Assembly (NCBI GenBank): GCA_012729835.1
Contig: JAAYCK010000109.1
Location: 1-62,069 of the forward strand
Source of the DNA: Syntrophomonadaceae bacterium
Lineage (GTDB): Bacteria > Bacillota > Syntrophomonadia > Syntrophomonadales > Syntrophomonadaceae
Length of the DNA: 62,069 nt
Direction: 5' to 3'
The notes beneath the pieces are model-generated. The model worked only from the letters and a program-made list of their open reading frames with translations, was not told the DNA's origin and did no database searches. Position 1 is the stretch's first letter. Each line of letters begins with the position of its first letter. Shown here in pieces: positions 15,777-26,043 of the stretch. The position numbers and the translations under genes were made by a program.

Positions 15777-17765
15777 ATGATTGTGTATAAAAGAGGTGGG
15801 AATTACTCTCTGCTGATAGCCCTGCTGCTCCTAGCACTGATGGCTGGTTGGGGCGGATACATCCGTCCGATTGAACATAAAGCCCTGGCCGCTGCCAACG
15901 TAAATCCTCTGCCAGTGGTCGGATCCAAGGAAAAACTCGTTGAACTTCTGAAAAAGTCTGGTGCTTTTGATCAGCGGCTGTACGTGGTAGAAGACGCCAT
16001 GCCCCAGGCAATGGAAAAATCGAAACAAAGCGCAGTCCCTACTGAAGGCAAGGCTGGCTCACGTGCCAATAGCAAAGACGAGGCTTATTCCAAGACCAAT
16101 ACCCAAGTAGAGGGTGTCGATGAAGCCGACGTAATAAAAACTGACGGCAATTATATCTATCAGGTCAACCGTAACCGCATCCTGATCATCAGTGCTAAAA
16201 ACCCGGCTAAGATGCAGGTAGTTTCCAAGATTGAATTCAGCAATAACGACTTTTCCCCCGCCGAACTCTACATAGATCAGACTAAACTGATCGTAGTTGG
16301 CCACAGTTCTATCAACATCGCCGATCCCTACTATTCCAGCCAGAGTAAGCGGGCCATGTTCCCTCCTGCTTATTACAGCCACCAGAGCACCCGGGCGCTG
16401 GTTTATGACATGCAAAACAAAGCCCAGCTCAAGCTGACCCGTGAACTCGAGATCGAAGGCAATTATATCTCCTCACGCAAGCTCGGCAATACCCTTTACC
16501 TGCTCAGCAATGAAAACATATATTATGCAACAGAAGACGACATCATGCTACCAAGTTATAGAGATACGGCAGCGAGCGCCAAGCCGGTCAGTATCGGCTA
16601 TAACCAATTGCGTTATTTCCCTGATCATATCTATCCGGCTTATATAAATATCGCTGCGATAAATACCGCCAACGCAGCCCAAAAGGCTCAAGTAGAGAGC
16701 TATCTGGGCAATGCCGAAAACATCTATGCCTCCACCAGTAACCTGTATATTGCCGCCAGCACCTATCAGCCAAGCGTGCGTCCCCTGGTGAAGGATTCAG
16801 CTGCCGACTCCCCCCGGCAACTCACCACCCTCTACAAGTTTGCATTAAAACCGTCCGGAATGGCTTATAGCGGCAAGGGTGAAGTCCCCGGCACCATACT
16901 CAATCAGTTCTCCATGGATGAAGACCAAGGCTATTTCCGAATAGCCACCACCACCGGTGAGGTTTGGGCAACCGGTTCCGAGATTTCTAAAAACAACATT
17001 TACGTGCTTGACTCTGACATGAAATTAATTGGGAGACTTGAAGACATTGCCCCAGGTGAAAAAATCTACTCCACTCGTTTCATGGGCGATCGGGCCTATA
17101 TGGTCACCTTCAAGAAGGTTGATCCCTTTTTCGTAATAAGTTTGCAGAATCCGGCTAAACCCTATATCCTGGGCAAGCTGAAGATTCCCGGATATAGCGA
17201 TTATCTCCACCCCTACGACCAAAACCATATCATAGGTTTTGGTAAGGACACCATCGAGACCAAGCTAGAAAATGGCCAGGATTCTATGGCTTTTTACCAG
17301 GGTCTCAAAGTAGCGCTGTTTGATGTGAGCGACGTTAAAAATCCTCAAGAGATCTCCAAGGTGATTATCGGCGACCGCGGAACTGACTCCGAGCTTCTCT
17401 CCAACCACAAAGCCTTGCTCTTCTCACGCGAGAAGCAATTACTGGCTTTCCCGGTAACAGTGATGAAGATCCGCGAGAGTGATAAAAAGCAAGCCGCCTC
17501 AGGCTGGCCTGCCTACGGCTCCTTTGAATATCAGGGGGCCTATATCTACCAGATCGATCTTAAGAAGGGGCTGCAGTTCAAGGGGCGCATAACTCATTTG
17601 AGTCAGGAGGATTTGCTGAAAGCCGGAGATAACTGGTATGACACGGAAAAAAACATTGACCGGATCATATACATCGGCAACAACCTGTATACGCTCTCGC
17701 CAAGCCAGATACAGGCCAACGCCTGGAACAGTCTCAAGCTAACGGGTACCCTGGAGATTAACTAG
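15777..17765 (+). CDS. Secreted beta-propeller-domain protein
   Basis: A 662-residue protein with an N-terminal signal/anchor (residues about 10-25, LLIALLLLALMAGWGG). From about 105 it shows the start of the beta-propeller family distantly related to WD-40 (Pfam Beta_propel): TNTQVEGVDEADVIKTDGNYIY. Repeated blade motifs follow, e.g. LYLLSNENIYY, IYVLDSDMKLIG and NNLYTLSPSQI. It probably acts outside the membrane in binding; no catalytic residues are evident. GGGGG precedes ATG 15777 and a strong terminator follows. Confidence 0.85.
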   Translation: MIVYKRGGNYSLLIALLLLALMAGWGGYIRPIEHKALAAANVNPLPVVGSKEKLVELLKKSGAFDQRLYVVEDAMPQAMEKSKQSAVPTEGKAGSRANSKDEAYSKTNTQVEGVDEADVIKTDGNYIYQVNRNRILIISAKNPAKMQVVSKIEFSNNDFSPAELYIDQTKLIVVGHSSINIADPYYSSQSKRAMFPPAYYSHQSTRALVYDMQNKAQLKLTRELEIEGNYISSRKLGNTLYLLSNENIYYATEDDIMLPSYRDTAASAKPVSIGYNQLRYFPDHIYPAYINIAAINTANAAQKAQVESYLGNAENIYASTSNLYIAASTYQPSVRPLVKDSAADSPRQLTTLYKFALKPSGMAYSGKGEVPGTILNQFSMDEDQGYFRIATTTGEVWATGSEISKNNIYVLDSDMKLIGRLEDIAPGEKIYSTRFMGDRAYMVTFKKVDPFFVISLQNPAKPYILGKLKIPGYSDYLHPYDQNHIIGFGKDTIETKLENGQDSMAFYQGLKVALFDVSDVKNPQEISKVIIGDRGTDSELLSNHKALLFSREKQLLAFPVTVMKIRESDKKQAASGWPAYGSFEYQGAYIYQIDLKKGLQFKGRITHLSQEDLLKAGDNWYDTEKNIDRIIYIGNNLYTLSPSQIQANAWNSLKLTGTLEIN

Positions 17766-17828: not shown

Positions 17829-19184
17829 TTAGCTGACGAATACTTTCTTTATAGTTAGTTTTACGTTACCGATACTCTTGCCCAAAGCATTCTTGAGCTG
17901 TTCCACGGGATTTTCCACCTTCCAGGCCGCCGGTTCCACCATGGTCAGCAGTATGCCGGAAAAGCGGAACCAGTAAGTAAAGAACCGGAAAATCGGCAAA
18001 AAGAAAATCACCCACCAGGTCTTTTTTATCTTTTGTCGATAGGTTCCCGATGTCTCTTTTACAGCCACAATGAAATATAAAAAATCTAGAAATAAATAAC
18101 AAACGTATAGTCCTACAAAGGCCGCAAAAACCAATTTAACAGGATAACCCAAAAAATACAGGAAGGGTATAAGAAAAGTCCAAGTCAATCGAGAAAAAGC
18201 CAGAGTATGGTCAATCATGATCATGCGCCCGGTAAAACTCCCCAAGCCGCCGCCCAGTTTCCCTAAGACTCCTGAGTGCATGGCAGTAACCTCTATTTGT
18301 CCCCTCTGCCAGCGCACCCTCTGTGAATATAGTTTGTTTATTGTGCAGACCGGTTCAACATAGGCGATTGCCGATGAAACGCACGCCATTCTGGCATTAT
18401 GGATGCGGGTACGCTGCCTGATCTGGAAAGTAAGATCAGTATCTTCTGAAACAGTCCTCTCCGAATACATCAGGGAATTCAGGATTACATCCCTACGAAA
18501 AGCTGAAAAGGCACCAGCCAGCGTAAACAGGTTGTTGGTAACACTTTGGAAGCGTCGCCCTACGTTGAAAGCCACCAGGTATTCGATCTCTTCACAATAA
18601 TGAATAATATCCATTAAGCGCGTTCGGTTGCCCAGCTCTTTGTCGATATGGATAGCGCCGGTTGCAGCCGCCAGGGACGGGTCATGCTCGAATGCCTGCA
18701 CCATGCGGTAAACGGCATTTTCATCCATCCATGCATCCGAATCCACATTAATGACATAGTCCCCTTTTATCATATAAATGCCGGCGTTCAATGCGATTGA
18801 TTTCCCGGCCCGATCCATGTCGATCCAGTTCAGGTTGAGTTCAGGAAAGTCATTCTGAAACTTACTAAATATCTCAAAACTATTATCGGCGCTGCCATTG
18901 TTGACACAGATCACCTGCATACGTTCGGTAGGATACTTCTGTTCAACTATAGACCTCAAGCATTGATACAAGCTGTCACTTGAATTATGTACAGGCACCA
19001 CGATAGAAACATATGGCAAGAAATTCAGCGAATCGAATTTTTCTCTTTCCTTAGCCTCGGGATACAAGAATACAATTCCAATAAATGCGATTGCCATGGT
19101 AACATCTATCGCCAGCGGAGCCAGCATCCAAATCCCCCAGAACAAAAGAAAGGCCAGCGATCTTTCCGCAAATATTTCAAGCAT
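17829..19184 (-). CDS. Glycosyltransferase family 2, exosortase G-associated
   Basis: A 451-residue membrane glycosyltransferase. It has N-terminal helices (about 8-48), a GT-A domain opening with VSIVVPVHNSSDSL, nucleotide/metal motifs NNGSADNS and NVDSDAWMD, an acceptor motif QRVRWQRGQ of processive GT2 enzymes, and C-terminal helices. It matches the family known as putative glycosyltransferase of the exosortase G system (TIGR03111, from memory). ATG 19184 overlaps the end of xrtG by 8 nt. It is the last gene of the operon and probably builds or attaches a surface glycan. Confidence 0.85.
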   Translation of the reverse strand: MLEIFAERSLAFLLFWGIWMLAPLAIDVTMAIAFIGIVFLYPEAKEREKFDSLNFLPYVSIVVPVHNSSDSLYQCLRSIVEQKYPTERMQVICVNNGSADNSFEIFSKFQNDFPELNLNWIDMDRAGKSIALNAGIYMIKGDYVINVDSDAWMDENAVYRMVQAFEHDPSLAAATGAIHIDKELGNRTRLMDIIHYCEEIEYLVAFNVGRRFQSVTNNLFTLAGAFSAFRRDVILNSLMYSERTVSEDTDLTFQIRQRTRIHNARMACVSSAIAYVEPVCTINKLYSQRVRWQRGQIEVTAMHSGVLGKLGGGLGSFTGRMIMIDHTLAFSRLTWTFLIPFLYFLGYPVKLVFAAFVGLYVCYLFLDFLYFIVAVKETSGTYRQKIKKTWWVIFFLPIFRFFTYWFRFSGILLTMVEPAAWKVENPVEQLKNALGKSIGNVKLTIKKVFVS

Positions 19185-19770
19185 GCTTACCCTTCTTTCT
19201 GACGTCCCCAAGAGTTGGGCGAGTAAATAGATACCAATAAATAATTACAGCCAGAATGAAAAATACTAAGCGTCCGATAAGAGTATGGGCTATGTACATG
19301 GCATTTCTACCCCAAATATTAATGATGGCAACAATAGTATACAGTCTGACAAGGTTCGCCGAGTAAAGTGCTGCCAAACCAGCAACGGCTTGGAATATTT
19401 TTGTGCGCCGGTTTCCTATGGGGAAAAATAACAACAATCCCAAGAGAACGCATGACTCCAATAGACCAGAACACTCGATATCTATATCTATACAAGTCCA
19501 ACTATTCTCCAAGGCCAACAGGACGAGTACCGTACCGGGAGATTTATCGAAAACCATAGTTTTGATGCCAACCAAGCCCAGACTATAATGGAGGATCAAA
19601 CCAGTCCATTGTTCGATAGCATACTCGACTGGCGATCCACGCAAGAGCAGTATCGCAATTATGGTCATGCCCACTGCTGCCCAGATATAATAGAAGATCC
19701 ATATTCTATTTTTGTACAAGTAATAGGCAATAGAGGCCCATATAATAATGGCAATTACGTATGCTAACAT
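19177..19770 (-). CDS. xrtG: Exosortase family protein XrtG
   Basis: A 197-residue multi-pass membrane protein. The three catalytic residues of exosortases are all present in hydrophobic contexts: Cys100 (DIECSGLLES), Arg142 (SANLVRLYT) and His162 (YIAHTLIGR). Length and context match XrtG (TIGR03110), the Gram-positive exosortase. It should cleave a C-terminal sorting signal at the outer membrane face and transfer the protein to an unknown acceptor. ATG 19770 overlaps the stop of the upstream substrate gene by 7 nt; longer in-frame starts would sit deep inside that gene. Confidence 0.88.
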   Translation of the reverse strand: MLAYVIAIIIWASIAYYLYKNRIWIFYYIWAAVGMTIIAILLLRGSPVEYAIEQWTGLILHYSLGLVGIKTMVFDKSPGTVLVLLALENSWTCIDIDIECSGLLESCVLLGLLLFFPIGNRRTKIFQAVAGLAALYSANLVRLYTIVAIINIWGRNAMYIAHTLIGRLVFFILAVIIYWYLFTRPTLGDVRKKGKHA

Positions 19771-20429
19771 ACTACTCTTCTCTTCTTTAGGATGATAACA
19801 GCACCGATCAGACCTGCCACAAAAATGGTTGCCAATAACCATGAAGGCATGATAGGTATCGGCGACCATTGGATATCTCCCCCATTGGGAACCCGATCAT
19901 GGGATTCGACTCCCACAACATACATCCTGATAGTTTGAGATGGCGGAATAATTCCTAAATCAGTCATTGGTACCGAGAACTCTACCTTGTCTACTCCAGC
20001 GATCTGGCCCCCGTTTTGAATGTAGCTGGCTACGGGTTTGCCTTTACGATCATAAACATCGACGTCAACCGATCCTAACAGGGGCTTGTATTCAATATCA
20101 ATGTAATAGTCGTGTTTATCTCCGTAATTACCATTGTCATTGCCATCTATATATAATATGAAATGTGCCGGCCATAACTTATGCAGCAAGTAAGTCTTGC
20201 GCTCGATCATAAAGTAAAGTCTTTCTTCATTAGGATTGGTTGCCCAGCCAAATCTGGTGATGTCATCAATGGCAATAAAGCCACCATCAACCGGATCGGC
20301 AAGACTCGGTTGCCCAACCCAATCGTTAAAATTGCCGTCCACAACAATGGCGCCAACTGCCATTATTGGTAGACTAAAAATTAATATACAACTTAAAAGC
20401 ACAGCAATCCCTATGATCCTTCGGTACAT
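19764..20429 (-). CDS. Surface protein with C-terminal Firmicu-CTERM-like sorting anchor (probable XrtG substrate)
   Basis: A 221-residue exported protein. A signal peptide covers residues 1-25. The mature part opens with VVDGNFNDWVGQP, the pattern of DOMON-like Firmicu-CTERM proteins. The C-terminus is a tripartite sorting tail: IPIMPSW (191-197), one hydrophobic helix (about 197-214) and the basic cluster KKRR (215-218). It directly precedes and overlaps xrtG, so it is the obvious cognate target. The motif residues cleaved are not known. Confidence 0.78.
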   Translation of the reverse strand: MYRRIIGIAVLLSCILIFSLPIMAVGAIVVDGNFNDWVGQPSLADPVDGGFIAIDDITRFGWATNPNEERLYFMIERKTYLLHKLWPAHFILYIDGNDNGNYGDKHDYYIDIEYKPLLGSVDVDVYDRKGKPVASYIQNGGQIAGVDKVEFSVPMTDLGIIPPSQTIRMYVVGVESHDRVPNGGDIQWSPIPIMPSWLLATIFVAGLIGAVIILKKRRVVC

Positions 20430-20527
20430 TTTGATCCCCTTTCCGGTATATCTAGCCGCAGTATGATGAAAAATTCTATCCGCTTACATTACGCATATGT
20501 ATTGCTATATCAAGTATATATTATTCG

Positions 20528-21136
20528 CTATTCTTTATAGCATTCCATAAAGAATAGCGAATAGGGTATTCTTAATAAACCTTTGTATTTAGTGGTTCTC
20601 ACAGTTGAAAAGTCGCTAGGGATCAATTTGGGATAACGCTCATCATATCTGACATATTCGCCTCGATCCTTGGAAACAAGCCATCTTTCCAGTAATGGTT
20701 GACCTGTATAAAAAACAGGATCTACAGTCAATACCCTGCCTCCAGGCTTTAAGGCCGCACTTGCCACTTTAAAAAGAGAGTCCGCCTCCTGGTCATTGAG
20801 GTGGTGGATTACGCCAATAGCAATGACAACGTCAAAAGGTTCTAGTTCCCGCAAAACTTCATCATTCAAGTATCTGCGCATAAAGGTTGCGCGATAACCA
20901 AAACGCTTTACAGCAGCATCAATATATACTTGACTCATATCAAAACCTACATAATCAATGTTTTCCGGTAGGTGTTCTACAATATCACCAGGGCCACAGC
21001 CGATATCAAGGATGCGCTCCCCTGGATTTGGTCTGATTAGTTTTTCCACATAGATATCCCGAGCAGGACCTTGACCTACGATGGTTGAAAACAATCTATA
21101 AATTGATGGACTGCTTAGAATGGATCTCATATCCAT
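20528..21136 (-). CDS. Class I SAM-dependent methyltransferase
   Basis: A 202-residue Rossmann-fold methyltransferase. Motif I is LDIGCGPGDIVEHL, followed by VGFDMSQVYI (the acidic ribose-binding region), VVIAIGVIHHLND (motif IV region) and LKPGGRVLTVDPVF. ATG 21136 has GAGGAGG 11 nt upstream; the GTG at 21148 overlaps it. It stands between a glycosyltransferase and the sorted surface protein in the exosortase operon, so it may methylate a sugar or lipid carrier of that pathway; the substrate is not readable. Confidence 0.8.
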   Translation of the reverse strand: MDMRSILSSPSIYRLFSTIVGQGPARDIYVEKLIRPNPGERILDIGCGPGDIVEHLPENIDYVGFDMSQVYIDAAVKRFGYRATFMRRYLNDEVLRELEPFDVVIAIGVIHHLNDQEADSLFKVASAALKPGGRVLTVDPVFYTGQPLLERWLVSKDRGEYVRYDERYPKLIPSDFSTVRTTKYKGLLRIPYSLFFMECYKE

Positions 21137-21157
21137 AGTTACAAACACCTCCTCTAA

Positions 21158-22135
21158 CTACAGGGGAGATTGTTGATAGTCATTGCCATAATTCAAGCCC
21201 AGCGTCTCTCGAACGAAATATAACGGTCGATGCTTGGATTCAGTGTAGATACGTCCAATATATTGGCCAATAATACCTATCGTAAACAGTTGTACCCCGC
21301 CAAGGAACAGAATTACAACCATCAAAGACGGATAACCAGGAACCTTATTGCCATGAATAACAGTATTAATGATCATATAGAAGCCATAAATGAACGACAA
21401 GAAGGCTACTCCTAGCCCCAGGTACATTGACCATTGCAAAGGCAGATAGCTAAATGAAGTGATTGCCTCGAGAGCAAGGTTCCAGAGTTTGTAATAATTC
21501 CATTTTGTTTTACCTGCAAACCTTGGATCTCTTGAGTATGTAATGCCCGTTTGACGGTAACCCACCCAAGTAAAAAGCCCTTTCATAAATCGATGGCTCT
21601 CGCGAAGTTCTTTAAGGGCATCGACTGCCTGCCTGGACATCAGGCGAAAATCCCCAGTATTTACAGGCATATTTAGATGGGTAATCTTTTTCATAGTCTT
21701 ATAAAACATTGCTGCTGTCATTTTCTTAAACCAAGTTTCACCCTCCCGATGAGTTCTGACCGCATAAACTACGTCATAACCTTCCTCCCATTTAGTGATC
21801 ATTTCCGGAATTAATTCCGGAGGATCTTGCAGATCAGCATCAATTGGAATAACAATTTCCCCACAGGTGAAGTCAATCCCGGCTGAAAGGGCAGTTTCTT
21901 TTCCAAAATTCCTTGAGAGGTCGATTACTTTAAACCTGTTATCCTTCTTATTTAAATCTCTGAGCATCTCAAGGGTATTGTCTCTGCTCCCGTCATTAAC
22001 GCAGATAACTTCGTAAGGTTTTTGCATCCTATCTAGGACCTTCGTTAATCTTGAATATAGTTCTTCAATATTAGCCTCTTCGTTAAACATTGGAATAACC
22101 ATACTTAGAAAAACCTTCTCTGATGCCTCGTTCAC
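21158..22135 (-). CDS. Polyisoprenyl-phosphate glycosyltransferase (GtrB/DPM1-like GT2)
   Basis: A 325-residue protein with a GT-A domain (VIPMFNEEANIEELY; NDGSRDNT; DADLQDPPEL with the DxD metal site; NTGDFRLMSR) and two C-terminal membrane helices (about 235-257 and 270-295). This is the layout of GtrB-type enzymes that load a sugar onto undecaprenyl phosphate. The GTG start at 22135 follows the upstream stop by 10 nt with a G-rich Shine-Dalgarno sequence. The neighbouring EmrE-like protein could flip the product. Confidence 0.85.
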   Translation of the reverse strand: MNEASEKVFLSMVIPMFNEEANIEELYSRLTKVLDRMQKPYEVICVNDGSRDNTLEMLRDLNKKDNRFKVIDLSRNFGKETALSAGIDFTCGEIVIPIDADLQDPPELIPEMITKWEEGYDVVYAVRTHREGETWFKKMTAAMFYKTMKKITHLNMPVNTGDFRLMSRQAVDALKELRESHRFMKGLFTWVGYRQTGITYSRDPRFAGKTKWNYYKLWNLALEAITSFSYLPLQWSMYLGLGVAFLSFIYGFYMIINTVIHGNKVPGYPSLMVVILFLGGVQLFTIGIIGQYIGRIYTESKHRPLYFVRETLGLNYGNDYQQSPL

Positions 22136-22145
22136 TAGCCCCCCC

Positions 22146-22511
22146 CTATCTCTGCAGCAAAAATATTCCGACCATTATGCTAGCTAGGCCAGCAAATTTT
22201 CCAATGCTTACCCCTTCATTGAAAAATATCGCAGAAAAGATAAATACTATTACATAAGAAAGACTTACACTTGGATAAGCCTTGCTAAGTTCCATAGTAG
22301 AGATGACCTTGAGCCAAAGAACCATACTTGTTACAAAGCAAATAACCCCCAGTAATACCCAAACGTTTGTAAAGGTTGTTAACAGGGTAGAAAACAGATT
22401 CCCGACCCTAAAGTCAATATTGCCTACACCCATAACGCCATACTTCAGGAGTATCTGTCCTGCTGCGCTAAGTACTATAGATATAAGTAAAAATAAAATA
22501 TCAGTACCCAA
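22146..22511 (-). CDS. EmrE/EamA-like small four-helix transporter (possible lipid-sugar flippase)
   Basis: A 121-residue protein with four membrane helices and the DMT-superfamily marks SAAGQILLKYGV at the start and LSKAYPSVSLSYVIVFIFSAIFFNEGV in helices 3-4. The size matches EmrE/ArnE/ArnF proteins. Its start overlaps the end of the PTPS-fusion gene by 11 nt and a polyprenyl-P glycosyltransferase follows, a combination also seen in ArnE/ArnF-type carrier-lipid flipping. Drug export is the alternative. Confidence 0.75.
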   Translation of the reverse strand: MGTDILFLLISIVLSAAGQILLKYGVMGVGNIDFRVGNLFSTLLTTFTNVWVLLGVICFVTSMVLWLKVISTMELSKAYPSVSLSYVIVFIFSAIFFNEGVSIGKFAGLASIMVGIFLLQR

Positions 22512-25500
22512 AATCTTCAGCTCCCTGTTTAATAAGTGGTCCTGTGACCTGTGAACGCCGGCGTTGCCTTAACAGCCAGAGAATACTGATCAATAGTGTT
22601 ATTACCGAAACAGCCATGCCTTTTCTATATATTGATGCCTGGGTCATTTCCACTTTTATTATATGATGACCACTTGGCAGAGTGAGAGCAATTAAGTTCT
22701 CCTGCCGCTTTTTGTCTACTAATTTCCCATCTATCCTTACCGTCATCCCGTCAAGATCTGCTATAGGGATAATTACATCAGTAGCTGCTTTTAGTGAATA
22801 TGATGCTATATAACCATTACTTGTCGGACGATAGGAATCAAAAGGCACAGACGGTTCCTGAGTATAATCATGTGATAGCCCAGTTAGCTGTTCCAGCATC
22901 TTCATAGCCACCTCATCATGTGTTAAATAAACATGATATGCCAAGTTAGCTCCTAAAAACCATATCTTTGAGCCGTTGGCATTTTTATATCCCCAAAGGG
23001 CAGCTTCATTTCCATAATGCTGATAAGATACAGGAGTGCTATCCAGTCCTTGCGGGGCATATGCTCTCCAGAGAGAATTATCTGCGTCAAACGGTTTTAA
23101 ATTAATTGTTCCCCCAGGCGCTTGGAAGACCGTTAATTGATTACGGATCTCAACTGGCTCTGCATAAACATTAAAGAATTTTGGCTGCCGGGCTAGGACA
23201 TCAAGCGGAAAACCAGTAAAATCAACAATGATTTTGGTACCTTTATTAGCGCATTCCTGGATTGTTTTTTCTGCCTTTGACTTGATATTCCATTGAGCAC
23301 CCGTCAGAACAATAGTGTTGTAAGCAGATAATTCCTTCGGGGTATAATCATCAATGTTATTACTTCGACCAATCTCTATCTGAGGAAAAATCAATGCAAA
23401 GTTACTCGCATTGGTTCCAATGGCCAGATAGCGTTTCTGATCTACTATCATATAGGGTCGTTCTTGTCTCGTCCAAACACTATAAGGTTCTAGTTCCATA
23501 TTTTGTTTGTAGCCGTAATCCGCAGCCATTTTTCTAAACGATGCTTTGCTCTTGATTTGATTATTATCTACTACAAGATACGTTGCACCAAGGTGGTATA
23601 ACTGTCTGAACAGATATGGATACCAATTAAACTCCATAGCACTATTCAGCAGCATTATATTGGGCGCTGTTGTAGCCCCCTGCCAAGCCCAACCAAAGAC
23701 CTGTTCGCGATGACCAACCATCGAAAAGAAATATGATGGCCGGGAATCAATGTTACCAAGATCTAAGGTAGCGACCCGCCATCCTTTTGATTTGGTTATC
23801 TCATCCGTGATTTTTACTATATAATAAGGTTCAGAAGCGGTTTTCATTTGCAACGTTCGAGTATAATAACTATCAATTATCAACCCACTAAAAATGATAA
23901 CCAAGAGTAATGCAGCTATTACGGTACTTCTTTTGGATGTTAAAATCTTAGAAGAAAAAGCAAATCCATATGAAATTACAGCAAGACTGGTAAAGGTAGA
24001 GAAACGTAGCGGCCACATTATGTAACCCAATGGCATCATCTGCTGGAACCATGCGAAGGCAGGAAAGGTTAGGCATATAAAAAGTAGCCCACAACAAAAG
24101 AGACTTTTAGCCCAAGTTGCTTTGGAACGCCAGGCTATTAATGAGATAAGTATAACCAATAATAGACTGACTCCCCAATAGTGTGTGCTTGGGTTTGAAA
24201 ATCGCACTAGAGGGTCAAAACTTTCGAGAGCACGCATGTACATTACAGCTCCACCCGCTGCCTCTTTGCTCATACCGGCCAGACCACCCTTTAAGCTTGG
24301 TAATAACCACCATGCAGAAAGCAATAGTCCAGTTACGATTGAGACTAATCCACGAAAAACCAGCTTTAAAGATGTCCCCCCAAATAGCCACCAGGTAATG
24401 GCAAATATCATAAAACAGACACAGTAGATAGCGGTCATCATGGCGTGGCTTAGTACTAAGATAAATACTAATGAAACGCTTCCAACAATTGGCCACGTTT
24501 TATTTCGGAATTGGGGATTAATAGAGTTGAAGAAGATCCAGAAGGCAAGCGGCAATATAGCCGTTGTCAAAATACGTGGCAGATTTCCTTCAGCTAGGGC
24601 TACCTTCATATTATCCTGCCATACCACCCAAACGACTCCTGCCATGATGGCTGGCCAAAGGCCTATGTTTTTTCTGGCCGCCAGCCAGAAAAAGCCTCCA
24701 AGCAATGCGCAGATAAAGATGTAGTAATGACCAGCTACAAATATGTTTGGAGTAAAAAACCTAATGATCGCAATAAAATAGTAAGGCAGTGGAGCCCAGT
24801 AGCGGAATAATTGGCAACCATTGTACCAATCCGCAATGAACTGCGGAAAATAGCTCCCTGCGACCATTTGGCGATACAGGTAATCGGCCTTATATAGGTG
24901 TCCCCATGTATCTGCTCCCCAAGGATAGGCACTATTCGGAGGGGCCGTTAGTATCGGCCAATATGCCCATACTGCCACACCAGTAATTATCAGAACCCCT
25001 AGCGCTATCTGCCACCAGGGTTGTGCTGGCAACCTGGAATCACTGAATTCATCGTTATGGTCGCCTTGCGGTTTTCTTTTCTTAAACCATTTATCTATCC
25101 TCGACTTTTGGCTTTTAGAGTCAGGTGGTGCAACTTCATTTACTGGAATATCAGTTTCACTACTATCGACATCAATGATTGTGTTTTCTTCAAAGACATT
25201 AGCGGAATCTGCTTGATTCAGAATCAAGCCTAATTCTCGCGAAGTATTTACATCATCCTCCAATGCCCCCAATGGTGGTGGCGTAACTTCGAATGTATTG
25301 TGATTTTCCTCATAGTCCTCTTCTTCAAGCTCAGCCTGAAGCTGCGTGCTATAATCATCAGCAGGGGGAGATTCTTCCTCACTCGCCGCAATTTCATCAT
25401 TAGCTATGCCCTTGATTACAGACAGACTTGCCGGTGGCGCTGGCGCTGGAGAAGACGAATCACTACTGAAGTAATTAGGAATCTTGCTGGTGATTTCAAT

Positions 25501-26043
25501 CCCCTTAGTCGGGTTTTCCCAAACCGTTAGCTTAACTAAATCAACACCGATTTCCCTGAGATCATCATAAAGGGTGTTAAAAAAATAAACCGCTATGTTT
25601 TCGGTAAGAGGCTCTACTTCAGTAAAAGGGGGTATCTCATTTAGAGTCGTTCTCTGATAGGGCGCCAGCAGTATATTGATATGTTTGTCTACATCTTCGA
25701 ATTTAACAAAGGATTCGCCCATGATATGAACATCGGCTTCAGCCTGGAGCTGCCAGGAATGCCCATGGGTTTTGCCCTTGTTGCCGGCAAACACCATATA
25801 GTGTCTGGCGTTAAGAAAGGCAACCACTTTCATGGCCATAACTGAATCACTATCCTGCCCATCAGCATTATCATCCTGGCCGACTGCTCTGATGCCCTTG
25901 GCAAAGGTGGGATCCTTGCGGGATAAATAATTTAACAATGCATCATGGGCCGCAGAAAGTTCTTCGAACTTGCGCTGCAGTTCGTTCAATTCTTCCATTC
26001 CGGGCCCAGGTCCATCAGAGCCATTATTGAATTGTGATCGCAC
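22501..26043 (-). CDS. PTPS-related domain fused to a large polytopic membrane protein
   Basis: An 1180-residue fusion. Residues 16-45 look like a coiled coil. Residues 68-190 match the 6-pyruvoyl-tetrahydropterin synthase fold, with the zinc ligands kept (His81, His93, His95), ENIAVYFFNTL and VWENPT, but no catalytic Cys before HGH (GNKGKTHGH). An acidic, Pro-rich linker spans about 190-345. From about 347 many membrane helices alternate with extracellular stretches, as in the membrane PTPS_related family, and the last helix ends in a basic tail. GTG 26043 lacks a near Shine-Dalgarno sequence, so ATG 25998 is possible. First gene of the exosortase operon. Confidence 0.82.
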   Translation of the reverse strand: MRSQFNNGSDGPGPGMEELNELQRKFEELSAAHDALLNYLSRKDPTFAKGIRAVGQDDNADGQDSDSVMAMKVVAFLNARHYMVFAGNKGKTHGHSWQLQAEADVHIMGESFVKFEDVDKHINILLAPYQRTTLNEIPPFTEVEPLTENIAVYFFNTLYDDLREIGVDLVKLTVWENPTKGIEITSKIPNYFSSDSSSPAPAPPASLSVIKGIANDEIAASEEESPPADDYSTQLQAELEEEDYEENHNTFEVTPPPLGALEDDVNTSRELGLILNQADSANVFEENTIIDVDSSETDIPVNEVAPPDSKSQKSRIDKWFKKRKPQGDHNDEFSDSRLPAQPWWQIALGVLIITGVAVWAYWPILTAPPNSAYPWGADTWGHLYKADYLYRQMVAGSYFPQFIADWYNGCQLFRYWAPLPYYFIAIIRFFTPNIFVAGHYYIFICALLGGFFWLAARKNIGLWPAIMAGVVWVVWQDNMKVALAEGNLPRILTTAILPLAFWIFFNSINPQFRNKTWPIVGSVSLVFILVLSHAMMTAIYCVCFMIFAITWWLFGGTSLKLVFRGLVSIVTGLLLSAWWLLPSLKGGLAGMSKEAAGGAVMYMRALESFDPLVRFSNPSTHYWGVSLLLVILISLIAWRSKATWAKSLFCCGLLFICLTFPAFAWFQQMMPLGYIMWPLRFSTFTSLAVISYGFAFSSKILTSKRSTVIAALLLVIIFSGLIIDSYYTRTLQMKTASEPYYIVKITDEITKSKGWRVATLDLGNIDSRPSYFFSMVGHREQVFGWAWQGATTAPNIMLLNSAMEFNWYPYLFRQLYHLGATYLVVDNNQIKSKASFRKMAADYGYKQNMELEPYSVWTRQERPYMIVDQKRYLAIGTNASNFALIFPQIEIGRSNNIDDYTPKELSAYNTIVLTGAQWNIKSKAEKTIQECANKGTKIIVDFTGFPLDVLARQPKFFNVYAEPVEIRNQLTVFQAPGGTINLKPFDADNSLWRAYAPQGLDSTPVSYQHYGNEAALWGYKNANGSKIWFLGANLAYHVYLTHDEVAMKMLEQLTGLSHDYTQEPSVPFDSYRPTSNGYIASYSLKAATDVIIPIADLDGMTVRIDGKLVDKKRQENLIALTLPSGHHIIKVEMTQASIYRKGMAVSVITLLISILWLLRQRRRSQVTGPLIKQGAEDFGY

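Follow-up and report, generated by a model that had tools for sequence, protein, structure and literature searches.

The operon at positions 17829–26043 on the minus strand of the window, by which we mean the whole 62,069-nucleotide stretch analyzed here (Syntrophomonadaceae bacterium, contig JAAYCK010000109.1), encodes the exosortase XrtG together with glycosyltransferases and a secreted partner protein. We favor, with modest confidence, the reading that its products work together in the membrane as a single machine for assembling and decorating a surface glycan, in which a protein of predicted CBM9-like fold serves as the dedicated partner. Counting for this reading are the co-occurrence of the genes, the predicted folds of their products, intact synthase motifs, a single exosortase with a single partner, purifying selection, and recurring sugar genes, as well as three fusion arrangements that join a GT-C glycosyltransferase, the partner, and XrtG in other genomes. 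In a sister clade to which Syntrophomonas wolfei belongs, XrtG is fused to the partner and has lost its Cys100; the fusions combined with this loss indicate that the partner probably acts as a component of a single glycan machine in the membrane, and that the fused clade can dispense with cutting by Cys100.

Family membership was decided by curated cut-offs in NCBIfam and Pfam profile scans of the window proteins. The 197-residue XrtG, encoded at 19177..19770 (−), scored 118.4 bits against TIGR03110 (cut-off 102.75), which gave the exosortase-model match that an earlier note on this DNA had set beforehand as a test for this protein. The three residues which that note had proposed as catalytic, Cys100 (codon at 19471..19473 (−), assigned from conservation in unfused relatives), Arg142, and His162, are all present in the window copy, whose bond chemistry (transpeptidase or protease) is putative, and a search of solved structures gave no sequence match to an exosortase. 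In the window genome, a TIGR04178 search detected one exosortase only, and one protein of the partner kind was found, which together point to a dedicated one-enzyme, one-cargo system. Within the family of the window, XrtG was found in 13 of 54 genomes, and TIGR03111 and TIGR03112 each exceeded their cut-offs in 12, all of them inside these 13; in the missing cases the contigs end at the operon, and one further family genome has a partial, below-cut-off match to TIGR03111 at a contig start. The set of XrtG, a family 2 glycosyltransferase (GT2), and a PTPS-related protein, described in the earlier note as co-occurring in Firmicutes, adjoins in the window and occupies the same genomes in the family; homologs that never co-occur with the other genes, which the note had named as the contrary pattern, were not what we observed. 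Beyond the family, an XrtG alignment scanned against 84,980 species genomes returned 31 loci, which were pooled with loci from whole-genome searches. In a Thermincola metagenome-assembled genome (MAG), XrtG and the TIGR03111 glycosyltransferase lie in a single open reading frame (L112, 10037–11485) with internal parts missing, which may reflect decay or misassembly.

The large protein of 1180 residues encoded at 22501..26043 (−) had been described as a PTPS/membrane fusion, and this holds for the PTPS-like domain but missed that the membrane part is a GT-C glycosyltransferase. Its N-terminal, cytosolic PTPS-like domain (25504..25824 (−); PF01242 at residues 78–185) scored 82 bits against TIGR03112 (cut-off 69.35), and PF10131, a member of the GT-C clan CL0111 (PMC7801869), matched residues 413–1037 at 451 bits. 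The AlphaFold model (pLDDT 86), which includes a large extracytoplasmic part, matched the oligosaccharyltransferase (OST) subunit STT3 at Z 25.1, PglB at 20.6, AftD at 20.1, and ArnT at 18.6, and it is on this clan membership and these fold matches that the GT-C assignment is based. Asp378, located in the first extracytoplasmic loop, is invariant in an 18-row alignment, from which we infer that it is the catalytic residue. In the PTPS domain, the zinc-binding residues His81, His93, and His95 and the pterin-anchoring Glu176 are retained, Lys89 occupies the position of the catalytic Cys, and APYQ replaces LDH; the Asp–His dyad is absent here and in aligned relatives as well, and the residue pattern suggests that this is probably a binding domain rather than a synthase. 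Some relatives have, at this locus, an additional PF10131 GT-C gene whose product lacks a PTPS domain (L102, 14833–17415; L104, 9944–12595).

The partner, encoded at 19764..20429 (−), carries a signal peptide and a C-terminal sorting-type tail, between which the AlphaFold model (pLDDT 89.5) places a β sandwich. Realignment with VIA matched this model to CBM9 of Thermotoga maritima xylanase 10A (1i82) at Z 12.0 over 151 residues, with a root-mean-square deviation of 3.3 and 15% identity, and the top eight rows comprised CBM9 structures, a putative carbohydrate-binding protein, Sas6 (CBM74), and ethylbenzene dehydrogenase, the next and first unrelated row scoring 7.5. Foldseek alone returned nothing significant for the model, with CBM9 at E 0.03, so the assignment to CBM9 depends on the VIA realignment, and Pfam gave no match at E 1, CBM9 included; the partner is described here as a predicted CBM9-like carbohydrate-binding fold. 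Two aromatic residues that could bind sugar, Trp37 and Trp62, are kept in the window copy. The tail has the layout of motif, helix, and basic end: GDIQWSPIP (19854..19880 (−)), a candidate recognition or cleavage site judging from the corresponding P[IV]P and PFP motifs of relatives, stands directly before a hydrophobic helix at residues 196–214 (196–220 in the model), and the basic end is KKRRVVC (helix and basic end at 19767..19844 (−)). The description of a sorted surface protein in the earlier note is therefore borne out for the sorting-type tail but not for the Firmicu-CTERM model, since TIGR04145 scored 21.8 bits under a cut-off of 50 and its match spans profile positions 103–152, outside the tail. 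Among the partners of relatives, that of S. palmitatica had no match to this model and that of locus L091 scored 19.4 bits. In a canonical system (L023), the 191-position TIGR04145 model begins at the stretch IDGHYDEW, which by eye suggests that much of this "sorting domain" model may describe a CBM9-like folded domain; a profile comparison between the partner family and the canonical L023 Firmicu-CTERM protein gave a probability of 6%, and the domain identity was not confirmed by it.

Gene fusions at other loci joined these proteins in three arrangements. At four loci (L024, L108, L030, and L111) the partner continues the GT-C chain beyond its C-terminus and retains its tail; at 14 loci in 13 genomes, S. 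wolfei among them, the partner instead precedes XrtG, joined to the N-terminus of the exosortase, and the tail helix is missing; and in Pelotomaculum (L097) the GT-C protein, partner, and XrtG form a single chain of 1539 residues. The junctions follow a consistent pattern, as every partner–XrtG fusion has PFP and a charged linker that runs straight into helix 1 of XrtG, and all unfused copies in which the motif was found have P[IV]P, after which comes a hydrophobic helix, usually with a basic end. The partner–XrtG fusions occur in Syntrophomonadaceae, Peptococcaceae, and Desulforamulus, in MAGs and isolates alike. Assembly artefacts were rejected as their source, the fusions being seen in 13 genomes including a single-contig genome of 2,936,195 bp and S. 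wolfei subsp. methylbutyratica. In Desulforamulus putei (L099, 9001–9900), the N-terminal half of the partner–XrtG fusion is gone and a reverse-transcriptase-like reading frame sits immediately upstream, a layout suggestive of a mobile-element insertion. In one Syntrophomonadaceae genome, the fused XrtG operon is present in two almost identical copies, each on its own contig (L100 and L103), and the sugar genes downstream differ between them.

The residue aligned with Cys100 was replaced in 14/14 partner–XrtG fusions, by Asn in 11, Ser in two, and His in one, whereas Cys was present in all 24 other rows (23 distinct loci) and in two more unfused copies (L132 and L133). Arg142 is invariant in all rows, fused and unfused, and His162 wherever the alignment covers it. 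Homologs lacking Cys100, which the earlier note had named as evidence against an exosortase of this kind, hence exist throughout a whole sister clade, only where the putative substrate is fused, but neither in the window nor in any unfused copy. When the Cys column was excluded from tree building, the fusion group and the Cys loss each required one change, with fusion-group support of 82/14 when locus L092 was included and 97/92 when it was left out; the window XrtG groups with the Cys-containing S. palmitatica (support 98/99). The event is old enough to account for the taxonomic span of the fused clade given above. The ratio of nonsynonymous to synonymous substitution (dN/dS) was 0.07–0.13 over both halves of the fusion, consistent with purifying selection. 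Decay of the Cys-less copies was considered and rejected on the value for the XrtG half (0.08–0.13), as was a second, Cys-containing exosortase acting in trans: of the 12 genomes searched with TIGR04178, seven belong to the fused clade, and none of these seven had another exosortase. As the fused clade demonstrates, a Cys100 enzyme is not required for the machine to persist, and the clade implies that holding the partner at the membrane beside XrtG suffices for function there.

These observations bear on what XrtG itself does. It is possible, and we entertain it tentatively, that XrtG is chiefly a structural subunit of a glycan-synthase complex, holding the CBM9-like partner by the synthase and the GT-C enzyme, and that the Cys chemistry would only create or adjust a link that fusion has replaced in the S. 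wolfei clade; if true, this would be the first exosortase to function with its nucleophile lost and its substrate as part of the same chain. Rather doubtful to us is ordinary sortase-like display, whereby XrtG would cut the tail of a lectin-like protein and attach it to a lipid or glycan, the glycosyltransferases would only make the anchor, and the fused clade would be a degenerate branch in which fusion replaces enzymatic anchoring. The tripartite tail and the active-site residues, as in archaeosortase A (PMC9263693), speak for such display, as does the 7-nt overlap of the partner gene with xrtG, but the genome holds a single substrate, the GT-C–partner fusions place the partner within the glycan machine, and the Cys-less XrtG retains Arg142 and His162 under purifying selection instead of decaying. 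A relocated nucleophile in the fused clade seems quite improbable: Cys107, which is invariant in 14/14 fusions against 6/24 unfused rows, lies seven residues further along, which puts it two turns deeper in the helix and on roughly the same face, and under this reading the fusion would be a self-processing precursor; yet Cys107 coexists with Cys100 in the window's clade and may simply be inherited, and in the fusions the PxP motif has become PFP and a charged linker stands in place of the tail.

The sugar genes of the operon could supply what a membrane glycan machine needs. The processive-type GT2 at 17829..19184 (−) scored 417.6 bits against TIGR03111 (cut-off 363.95), and its synthase motifs VDSDAW, SEDT, and QRVRW (the last at 18309..18323 (−)) are intact in nearly all loci, the Cys-less clade included. 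A second GT2, of PgfS/ArnC kind and a probable polyprenyl-phosphate sugar synthase (21158..22135 (−)), scored 301.9 bits against PgfS NF047588 (cut-off 500) and 188.7 against NF007986, and the SMR/EamA-like small transporter at 22146..22511 (−), a probable polyprenyl-phosphate sugar flippase, scored 76.1 against 99 for ArnF (NF002816) and 41.6 against 92 for ArnE; as all these equivalog scores fall below their cut-offs, the names mark similarity only. The suggestion that extra lipid-linked-sugar genes accompany the XrtG system is nevertheless upheld by these PgfS/ArnC-like and ArnF/ArnE-like proteins. Together with a class I S-adenosylmethionine-dependent methyltransferase (20528..21148 (−); PF13649 and others), they recur as a set at other XrtG loci: that of S. 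wolfei subsp. methylbutyratica has a 72% identical PgfS-like GT2 gene with SMR and methyltransferase genes, and L097 and L102 have a 59% identical methyltransferase gene beside a PgfS-like gene. A link to cyclic di-GMP through the PgaC-like glycosyltransferase was set aside, as a literature search found nothing on point and no search aimed at diguanylate cyclases was made.

PgfS belongs to a streptococcal system that glycosylates a surface adhesin. With PgfS as the closest named model for the second GT2, with the fold of the GT-C enzyme nearest the protein-glycosylating OST, PglB, and Pmt enzymes, and with GT-C–partner fusions at four loci, one may ask whether the partner is an acceptor, which GT-C would glycosylate with the flipped sugar, yielding a methylated glycoprotein for XrtG to sort, a scheme near that of the earlier note. 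We regard this as unlikely, given that GT-C folds also act on lipid A (ArnT) and arabinan (AftD), that any acceptor site is putative only, and that the processive synthase would be left unexplained. Attachment of a lipid-linked sugar to the partner by XrtG, as the earlier note had proposed, is possible but unsupported.

Under the reading of one glycan machine, the TIGR03111 GT2 would make and extrude a polymer, the PgfS/ArnC-like GT2 would load a sugar onto polyprenyl phosphate, the SMR protein would flip it, and the GT-C enzyme would add the flipped sugar outside, with possible methylation of the sugar by the methyltransferase. The CBM9-like partner would handle the glycan at the membrane, and in Cys-containing lineages, including the window, XrtG would cut the partner tail near GDIQWSPIP and move the partner to a new anchor, lipid or glycan. 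Several points weigh against this proposal. Fusion and Cys loss amount to one evolutionary event, so their correlation has no independent replicates. The SMR, PgfS-like GT2, and methyltransferase genes are missing from many loci and are therefore accessory. The window partner has Gly140 where its relatives nearly invariantly have Trp, which leaves sugar binding putative. Finally, the CBM9-like cargo is not universal, since in Tepidiforma (Chloroflexi), where XrtG keeps its Cys, an unrelated secreted protein of 540 residues with a sorting-type tail lies between the PTPS gene and xrtG (L113, 8364–9986; L114, 8370–9986), and no GT-C match was found in the neighborhood of these two loci.

All seven open reading frames that the earlier note had listed as collinear were found, with small corrections to a glycosyltransferase start and to one gap. 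The TIGR03111 glycosyltransferase starts at ATG 19184 in place of TTG 19211, based on homologs and a ribosome-binding site, the GT-C and SMR genes overlap by 11 nt, and the gap between the methyltransferase and partner genes is 98 nt. An inverted repeat of 18 pairs (20521–20564) reaches from the last part of the methyltransferase gene into this gap and may set the sugar module apart from the core genes. Convergent to the operon, at 15777–17765 (+), lies a gene for a secreted PF09826 β-propeller protein of 662 residues (556 bits), with homologs of 53–55% identity near the XrtG operon at L088, L089, and L090, all three in the window's Cys-containing clade.

Why exosortases stand beside exopolysaccharide genes is a longstanding question, and the fused clade offers a natural test of the purpose of the XrtG family, as its Cys-less enzymes with intact glycan genes allow the catalytic and structural roles of an exosortase to be separated. 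With a predicted carbohydrate-binding module recognized in the single cargo, and a GT-C enzyme in the PTPS-related protein, what had been a loose association of genes becomes a pathway open to testing. Our literature search, with subscription papers outside its reach, found nothing on XrtG biochemistry, Cys-less exosortases, or these fusions.

The kind of system is already known, a "complete Exosortase G system" having been named in Lactiplantibacillus plantarum transcriptomes (PMC12854382). As in the XrtG/Firmicu-CTERM system (TIGR03110, TIGR03111, TIGR03112, and TIGR04145), the exosortase, GT2, and PTPS-related domain of the window exceed their cut-offs and a single tail-bearing protein is encoded beside xrtG; the window differs in that its cargo falls below the Firmicu-CTERM cut-off, its PTPS domain is fused to GT-C, and SMR, PgfS-like GT2, and methyltransferase genes are added, while in its sister clade the cargo is joined to an XrtG that lacks the Cys. 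Archaeosortase A acts on several substrates. In Haloferax volcanii it requires one Cys and two Arg residues and its substrates are lipid-anchored (PMC9263693), providing a precedent for tail removal followed by lipid attachment; it and XrtG are both polytopic Cys/Arg enzymes with substrate tails of motif, helix, and basic end, but archaeosortase A uses a PGF motif whereas the window has glycan genes and a single dedicated substrate, whose tail carries P[IV]P. The processive GT2 has the poly-N-acetylglucosamine synthase PgaC/IcaA as its second-best NCBIfam model and shares the D/DxD/ED/QxxRW motifs, although its 136 bits lie far under the PgaC cut-off of 422. The partner resembles CBM9 of xylanase 10A in predicted fold, unlike which it would belong to a membrane machine and not a hydrolase, at the low identity and lack of a Pfam match given above. 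Lastly, the three-component transmembrane glycosylation system CsbB–GtcA–YfhO of Bacillus and Listeria (PMC7389260, PMC8035078) likewise groups a polyprenyl-phosphate-sugar-synthase-like GT2, a small flippase-like protein, and a GT-C enzyme, but the GT-C protein of the window combines PF10131 with a PTPS domain and is associated with a processive synthase as well as an exosortase.

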